In this document: in pieces, positions 26,085-30,207 of the stretch
Layout: the number at the start of each line of letters is the position of its first letter
Numbering within the stretch: position 1 is the stretch's first letter
Source: Halopiger djelfimassiliensis
GTDB lineage: Archaea > Halobacteriota > Halobacteria > Halobacteriales > Natrialbaceae
Assembly: GCF_000455365.1 (NCBI RefSeq)
Contig: NZ_HG315686.1
Span: forward strand, 592,779-656,778
Length of the DNA stretch: 64,000 bases
Direction of reading: 5' to 3'
Translations under genes and position numbers: made by a program
The notes under the pieces: model-generated
Database searches by the model: none
The model's input: only the letters and a program-made list of their open reading frames with translations
What the model was told of the DNA's origin: nothing

Positions 26085-27347
26085 ATGGCAGACAACCCGC
26101 CTGCGGACGATCCCGAGCAGCGGCGAGTAACGACCGATCCGGAACGGATCAGGGAGTGGGCGGAGGCCCGTGACGCCGTCCCCGTCTCGACCCACGGTGG
26201 GGAGGGACACGGCCATACCTTCGCCCAGCGGGACGAACTCGATCCCGGTCAGGACGAACTGTCATGGGACGAGTTCGCCGAGACGTTCACGAACCGGGAT
26301 CTCGTGTTCGTCTACCACGACGCGGAACCGACCGATCGCGGGCTGGGATCGTTCGATATCCTCGAACGCGAGGAGGCGTTCGATCGGGCGGCGCTCGGTC
26401 GCGACGAACTCGAGGCGTCGCTGCGGGAGGGTGAAACGGTCACGACGGAAATCGTCGAAACACAGGTCGTCGAACGCGAGATCGTCGAACGGGATACGAT
26501 CGAGAGCGAAGTCGTCGACAGCGACGTCGTCGAGCGGACCGTCGCGGATTCGGAACTGCTCGAGCGCACCATCGTCGATACGGAGTTCGTCGCCGAGGAC
26601 GTCATCACGGTCACGACCGACGAAACCCGCCTCGAGACGATCGAGGAGATCGAACGCTACACCATCGAAAGTCGGGTGGTCGACGTCGACATCGAGCAAC
26701 ACGACGAGATCGAACGCGAGAAGATCGAGACGGACCTCGACCTCGAAACCGTCCAGCGATCGATCCTCGAAAGCGACGTCGTCGAGTCGGACGTGACGGC
26801 GGACGACGTCCTCGCCGAGGACGTCATCCGGAGCCAGCGAACCGAAGGCGACACCGTCCGAACCGAACTGCTCGAACGGCGTACGCTCGAGGAGGAGGTT
26901 TCGGAACGGACGCGAATGCGGTTTACGCTCGAGGACACCGAACTGCTGGAGTCGTCGGTGATCGGGACCGACGTCATCGAGGGGGAGATCATCGACGTCG
27001 AGGAGTACGGCTCCATCGAAACGACGGGCGAGACCGGCACCCGCGCCGAACCGACCGACACCGGGGCAGAACCAGAGACGCCGACCGTCGACGCCGGTAC
27101 GGTCGAACTCTCCAGAGACGAACAGGGGAAAGCCGTCGTCGACCAGTCCGGCCAGCAACTCGGCATCGTCACGGAGGTCGAAGCCCAGACCGCCTACGTC
27201 GATCCCGAACCCGGATTGGCCGACCGACTCAAGGCGCGGCTTGGCTGGGGCGGCCACGGCGACGACGAGTATCCGATCGATGCATCGGACATCACGGACG
27301 TGACCGACGACACGGTGGTTATCGAACACACGGACGAGCCGGAGTAG
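26085..27347 (+). CDS. Acidic pentad-repeat protein with C-terminal PRC-barrel-like segment
   Basis: 420 residues. Residues 1-80 are a small N-terminal domain (TTDPERIREWAEARDAVP, SWDEFAETFTNRDLVFVYHD). Residues about 117-305 show a five-residue periodicity of two aliphatic residues, then an acidic one, then two variable ones: IVETQ, VVERE, IVERD, TIESE, VVDSD, VVERT, VADSE, LLERT, IVDTE. It fades and returns (SILES, VVESD, VLAED). This differs from the A(D/N)LxX pentapeptide repeat but could build a similar beta-solenoid, or amphipathic strands. Residues 340-415 (ELSRDEQGKAVVDQSGQQLG, then YPIDASDITDVTDDTVVIE) look like a PRC-barrel. No signal peptide. Function unknown. Confidence 0.85.
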   Translation: MADNPPADDPEQRRVTTDPERIREWAEARDAVPVSTHGGEGHGHTFAQRDELDPGQDELSWDEFAETFTNRDLVFVYHDAEPTDRGLGSFDILEREEAFDRAALGRDELEASLREGETVTTEIVETQVVEREIVERDTIESEVVDSDVVERTVADSELLERTIVDTEFVAEDVITVTTDETRLETIEEIERYTIESRVVDVDIEQHDEIEREKIETDLDLETVQRSILESDVVESDVTADDVLAEDVIRSQRTEGDTVRTELLERRTLEEEVSERTRMRFTLEDTELLESSVIGTDVIEGEIIDVEEYGSIETTGETGTRAEPTDTGAEPETPTVDAGTVELSRDEQGKAVVDQSGQQLGIVTEVEAQTAYVDPEPGLADRLKARLGWGGHGDDEYPIDASDITDVTDDTVVIEHTDEPE

Positions 27348-27512
27348 TCGAACGGCCACAACGAGGGCCTGAAACGGCAGTGAACGGTCCCGATCTCTCG
27401 AGAAACGACCGCGACGAGACCGGGATATCTGGGTGCGCTTACCGGGCGGCAGCCGCGTCGCGTACCTCCCACCGCGTGGGTCGGACGCGACTCCGGCCCG
27501 GAGGCGTTCCGC

Positions 27513-29958
<2,446 letters not shown>

Positions 29959-30207
29959 TCACTCGGCTCCGGCCCGTTCGACGATCAGGTAGTCGTCGAG
30001 TCCGCTGATGTACCGGGCAGAAACCGGGATCAGGCCGTCGTCCGTCGTTTCGATGCCGTGTGAGGCGTCGGCGGGCGGCGAGACGTACACCGTTTCGAGC
30101 GCGCCCGTCTCGAGGTTCATCGTCACGTTGTGGACGGTCCCGAGTTTCGTCCCGTCCGATTTCATGACTGGCTTCTCGGAGAGCGTCGATGCGAGGACCT
30201 TCGACAT
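29959..30207 (-). CDS. Small PRC-barrel domain protein
   Basis: 82 residues, essentially one PRC-barrel: MKSDGTKLGTVHNVTMNLETG, then DDGLIPVSARYISGLDDYLIVE. Stand-alone PRC-barrel proteins of this size in haloarchaea include the CdpB cell-division proteins that bind SepF; this protein resembles them in size and fold, but I cannot assign it to that group. No neighbouring division gene. The upstream region has TTTATT/TTTATC elements on the minus strand about 18-31 bases before the ATG. Confidence 0.88.
   Translation of the reverse strand: MSKVLASTLSEKPVMKSDGTKLGTVHNVTMNLETGALETVYVSPPADASHGIETTDDGLIPVSARYISGLDDYLIVERAGAE

Follow-up and report, generated by a model that had tools for sequence, protein, structure and literature searches.

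The protein described here carries a new, undescribed repeat domain and belongs to a conserved haloarchaeal family, for which we infer a putative function. Its gene lies in a 64,000-nucleotide stretch of the Halopiger djelfimassiliensis genome (the window), where an open reading frame with an ATG start encodes 420 amino acids (Table 1). From N- to C-terminus, the protein consists of an N-terminal domain, a domain of five-residue repeats (pentads), a linker and a PRC-barrel. It is very acidic, in agreement with the initial annotation of this DNA. Hydropathy analysis of all 420 residues revealed no membrane segment (maximum 19-residue Kyte–Doolittle mean 0.93), and because it lacks one, the protein is most likely cytoplasmic. 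An open frame of 365 codons overlaps the gene on the opposite strand (window 26262–27359, −) and is probably a GC-rich mirror artefact.

Table 1. Features of the repeat gene and its product (window coordinates).
Feature	Position	Strand	Residues	Basis and remarks
Whole gene	26085–27347	+		ORF; pI about 4.05; homologues found
N-terminal domain	26124–26324	+	14–80	alignment A4, hhalign
Pentad block A	26433–26711	+	117–209	hh(E/D)xx; paired hydrophobics where residue number ≡ 3,4 (mod 5)
Predicted hairpin turn, block A	26595–26618	+	171–178	AlphaFold2 strands and homologue insertions
Phase-slip segment	26712–26750	+	about 210–222	poorly predicted, pLDDT about 30
Pentad block B	26751–26993	+	223–303	paired hydrophobics where residue number ≡ 2,3 (mod 5)
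Variable acidic/Gly/Ala/Thr linker	27009–27101	+	309–339	low conservation, pLDDT <40
C-terminal PRC-barrel-like domain	27102–27323	+	340–413	Pfam PRC, Foldseek

Five-residue periodicity of the central domain

The initial annotation had described a five-residue repeat in this protein and proposed hydrophobicity autocorrelation as a check. Over residues 113–310, the autocorrelation showed a clear peak at lag 5 (0.475, z 6.5), which exceeds all of 2000 shuffles (top value 0.25). Further peaks stood at all multiples of five up to lag 40, with troughs between them; values were 0.417 at lag 10, 0.407 at lag 20 and still 0.32 at lag 40. In the shuffles, the maximum across lags 1–40 had its 99.9% point at 0.29. 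Fourier power at a period of five residues (72°) reached 20.1, whereas the 99.9% maximum of the shuffles was 10.8. The claimed repeat, spanning residues ~117–303, is borne out by these measures and by the runs of pentads described below, and the lag-5/10 pattern was present in all 72 homologues tested.

Hydrophobic residues occupy two adjacent positions in each pentad, with beta-branched residues at the paired sites, and V, I and L together make up 30% of the repeat in a fixed register. A strict pentad was defined as [VILTFM][VILTAFM][ED]xx, or hh(E/D)xx in short. It occurs 19 times in total, nine of them consecutively and without a break at residues 123–167 (IVETQ VVERE IVERD TIESE VVDSD VVERT VADSE LLERT IVDTE); in 2000 shuffles, the longest run was 3 and the highest total 15. 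The unbroken run comprises exactly the pentads that had been quoted beforehand. The accompanying estimate of 30 or more units holds if pentads are counted by hydrophobic periodicity, which gives about 37, but not for strict units. When averaged over the family, the phase shifts by one residue at about positions 210–226, and this slip separates block A of the repeat from block B.

At the DNA level, Tandem Repeats Finder reported just two short 15-bp arrays in the repeat region. A DNA-level tandem array is ruled out by the lack of a long one, and the repeat is a protein-level pattern.

Family conservation, end domains and genomic setting

A genome scan recovered nine named relatives with 53–67% identity in Natronorubrum, Haloterrigena, Natrinema and Natrialba. 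Near-full-length copies occur in about half of 125 sampled Natrialbaceae genomes, and more distant members (31–46% identity) in six or more other haloarchaeal families. Tallies across the whole phylum are underestimates, with few candidates scored per genome and more distant members counted as absent. The Halopiger genome itself has one copy, and seven other matches span the PRC end only. In total, 110 distinct haloarchaeal sequences were collected, all 110 of which carry the N-domain, the pentads, the linker and the PRC-barrel in the same order.

Mean top-residue frequency across the 110 sequences was 0.70 for residues 116–170, 0.67 for 179–206 and 0.57 for 227–308, compared with 0.66 for the PRC domain, 0.61 for the N-domain and 0.32 for the linker (residues 309–338), where 19% of the alignment is gaps. 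The first pentad block is thus no less conserved than the PRC domain. Because residues 116–170 score 0.70 against 0.32 in the linker, the repeat reads as a constrained domain and not as filler; judged by its conservation, it is under constraint like a folded domain. The blocks are nearly constant in length among Natrialbaceae orthologues, and orthologues at 65–70% identity keep that length, whereas an expanding tandem array varies. The protein represents an undescribed, vertically conserved haloarchaeal family and not a compositional accident. A viral origin was rejected, as no relatives were found in phage records or in either of two viral-contig scans.

In the N-terminal domain, W25 and W61 are invariant (alignment A4), and no Pfam or NCBIfam model matched. 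The domain is homologous to an unnamed Sinorhizobium protein of ~93 amino acids (QND37136.1; hhalign prob 98.9, E 3.8e-17). Unlike the haloarchaeal protein, this bacterial protein stands alone, with neither pentads nor a PRC-barrel; its gene is surrounded by genes of stress type, for UdgX, glutathione S-transferase and trehalose synthesis. The stand-alone form (L100:5974–6255, +), which has no Pfam or NCBIfam name, is found on just over 170 plasmids, most of them from Sinorhizobium and Rhizobium. A 269-aa haloarchaeal protein (L099:1468–2277, +) combines the same domain with a Lamin Tail Domain (PF00932, E 1.6e-17), and because of this fusion we regard the N-domain as a mobile module.

The last ~75 residues belong to the PRC-barrel fold, as profile and fold matches support. 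The Pfam PRC model (PF05239) matched the window domain with E 0.0024 and 18.3 bits, below the curated cut-off of 21.2, and matched 11 of 26 family members (best E 2.7e-5). Foldseek with the predicted model returned reaction-centre H subunits (prob 0.97–1.00) and RimM (3h9n, 0.99), although with weak E-values (0.04–0.15) and r.m.s.d. 4.5–8 Å. A PF05239 profile match and a compact beta-barrel, the two marks of the superfamily, were both found, and the PRC-barrel-like end proposed initially is upheld. The C-terminal end shares its fold with the PF05239 proteins RimM, reaction-centre H and haloarchaeal CdpB1/CdpB2. It differs from them as a divergent subfamily, in which the window protein scores under the Pfam cut-off and which has a conserved PGLTDRIKAxLGWG stretch, and as just one of three modules in its protein.

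The flanking reading frames, which we take from their sequences and established family knowledge to be a heavy-metal P-type ATPase, an AlkA-like DNA glycosylase and KatG, accompany the repeat gene in all nine named loci (L001 to L009). The same set occurs in one further locus (L120), and two more divergent Natrialbaceae keep part of it. Loci from the other families sampled have different neighbours, with occasional regulators (HalOD1, HTH-CBS proteins). In the window, AlkA is divergent and katG convergent relative to the repeat gene, so these genes are neighbours by descent and do not form an operon; the orientation of AlkA varies among the nine loci. The proximity to katG noted in the initial annotation is real in the window, where the two genes adjoin, but the linkage is limited to one Natrialbaceae clade and involves no shared operon. 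A functional link with katG was rejected on the same grounds, the block being missing in the other families sampled.

The separate PRC gene that had been reported nearby is present at 29959–30207 (−), upstream of katG. It encodes a stand-alone PRC-barrel protein of 82 amino acids (Pfam PRC 1.1e-6), and a relative occupies the same place in only one (L005) of the nine loci. We claim no special pairing between the two genes, the homology being weak (hhalign prob 20.8, E 0.0011).

Relation to known repeats and predicted fold

Pentapeptide-repeat proteins (PF00805 and related families; Qnr, MfpA, RfrA) likewise have a five-residue period over many contiguous units. They are recognised by at least eight contiguous pentads of A(D/N)LXX / [STAV][DN][LF][STR][G], and we took the 2006 and 2019 consensus from the literature (PMC8145042). 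The haloarchaeal repeat contains no exact match to either consensus, and its four-of-five matches to the 2019 consensus are not above shuffles (best run 2). No Pfam pentapeptide family matched at E ≤ 10, nor did any Pfam repeat family. Consensus mismatch and absent Pfam match rule out a classical pentapeptide repeat, as the initial annotation had maintained. The two motifs, [STAV][DN][LF][STR]G and hh(E/D)xx, also differ in the spacing of their hydrophobic residues, which stand at i and i−2 in pentapeptide repeats and next to each other here.

The structure of the full-length chain was predicted with AlphaFold2 from a ten-sequence alignment. The best model had a pLDDT of 60.6 and a pTM of 0.28, and the other four had pLDDT values of 46.6–54.5. 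Strands were predicted at residues 134–170 / 173–204 (pLDDT about 83) and 257–283 / 286–313 (about 77), with residues 200–255 poorly resolved; their pairing was deduced from how the elements follow one another in the model output and not from coordinates. The isolated repeat reached a pLDDT of 44.5 and included a spurious-looking helix. The prediction, although of low confidence, thus shows long beta-hairpins where the right-handed quadrilateral beta-helix of pentapeptide type would have coils. Of the beta-solenoid envisaged in the initial annotation, the beta-rich character is favoured, the coiled form less so.

A coiled coil or amphipathic helix, which had been named as a possible contrary outcome, was not seen in the sequence periodicity (power 0.0 at 100° and 103° vs 20.1 at 72°). 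Disorder appears unlikely given the conservation of the repeat, and the models point most likely to a beta-rich extended fold. Insertions of 40–100 residues in many distant homologues sit at the predicted first turn (alignment A2), a position consistent with the loop of a hairpin. Pooled mean-field covariation (110 sequences, Neff 75) gave no clear ridge for either hairpin or solenoid; only isolated covarying pairs, 156–187 among them, are compatible with the first turn.

Many members of a distant subfamily (L051–L057, L073, L075, L078, L083, L085; alignment A2) carry a CxxC (ECTxC) around window residue 163, just ahead of the insertion. It might have a metal-binding or redox role in that subfamily; the same alignment shows that it is missing from the window protein.

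Searches of solved structures gave only weak matches to phage tail sheaths (E 0.026), which were taken as chance. Foldseek matches to pore proteins, complement and gasdermin among them (prob mostly 0.1–0.4; one gasdermin 0.75, CETP 0.57), were dismissed as generic long hairpins (r.m.s.d. 13–36 Å) with no functional sign; matches to viral folds were equally weak.

Two other accounts of the repeat were weighed. In one, the pentads coil into a new beta-solenoid, an acidic rod with three or four pentads per turn. The exact five-residue period over 180 residues with one slip and the beta-branched residues at the paired sites speak for it, as does the fact that known five-residue-per-side repeats are solenoids (PMC8145042). 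We nevertheless consider it unlikely: the hydrophobics are adjacent and not at i and i−2 (Fourier power over the whole repeat region falls to 1.6 at 144°), AlphaFold2 gives hairpins instead of coils, the large insertions concentrate at one turn, and the 110 sequences show no excess covariation at separations of 15 or 20. Of the two beta models, the predictions would favour the ribbon over the solenoid. The other account, that haloarchaeal amino-acid bias has produced an intrinsically extended or low-complexity acidic linker without a fold, is in our view rather improbable. Haloarchaeal proteins are generally acidic, the repeat region contains 33% D+E against 9% K+R, and the isolated region is not confidently folded; yet such a linker would not be expected to hold V, I and L in a fixed register, to be conserved far above the true linker or to keep a constant length between orthologues. 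That the repeat is a new beta fold of exact five-residue period with adjacent hydrophobics, either a long ribbon that stacks on itself or a solenoid of a new kind, is a possibility that we hold tentatively. Such a fold would be the core of the three-module protein throughout the Halobacteria and would belong to none of the Pfam repeat families.

Proposed role and significance

Our leading proposal, held at slightly less than even confidence, is that the protein acts as a soluble three-module adaptor or scaffold with an acidic beta-ribbon as spacer and the PRC-barrel as docking end, perhaps in stress physiology. The N-module would be a small globular domain that is also made as a stand-alone bacterial protein. 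The middle would form a rigid, highly acidic, beta-rich extended domain of about 37 five-residue units in two registers, folded most likely as long antiparallel beta-ribbons. A flexible linker would join it to the PRC-barrel, which may dock on a partner protein, and the whole would hold the N-domain partner and the PRC partner apart or together. We favour an adaptor because two end domains with stand-alone relatives flank a constrained, acidic, presumably beta-rich spacer and a linker.

PRC-barrels dock on proteins, as RimM does on S19, and bacterial DUF2382–PRC proteins of the YsnF type are stress proteins. A docking role has precedent in Haloferax, since the PRC-barrel proteins CdpB1 and CdpB2 stabilise the divisome (PMC12186497). 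A Sphingomonas gene encoding a PRC-barrel protein is recorded as having a target site for EcfG, the general stress sigma factor (PMC6599016); together with the DUF2382–PRC proteins, it makes a stress role plausible by analogy. Against the stress idea, the neighbouring genes on which it rests vary across families.

The resemblance to DUF2382–PRC proteins could be read more literally, with the family as their haloarchaeal counterpart. These proteins (PF09557, YsnF/AvaK type) too combine a charged, valine/glutamate-rich repeat with a PRC-barrel, and the niche would be open, since none of 116 haloarchaeal genomes contained DUF2382, which was detected in both controls, Bacillus subtilis and Deinobacterium. 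We find this reading very unlikely: the Pfam search gave no PF09557 match in the window protein, which carries an additional N-domain, and the likeness is one of analogy and not homology. It is highly improbable that the repeat acts as a DNA mimic to bind a DNA enzyme, as the pentapeptide proteins Qnr and MfpA do. Although residues 117–310 carry a net charge of −45 in a regular array and a DNA-repair gene (AlkA) adjoins in one clade, high acidity is normal in the haloarchaeal lineage, the protein does not belong to the Qnr or MfpA family, and its neighbours change from family to family.

To our knowledge, period-five repeats have so far marked a single fold, the pentapeptide beta-helix. A conserved protein that keeps this period but spaces its hydrophobic residues differently would represent a second solution and would contribute a structural class adapted to molar salt. 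It would also unite in one protein two orphan modules, the N-domain that is widespread in bacteria and the divergent PRC-barrel of archaea.
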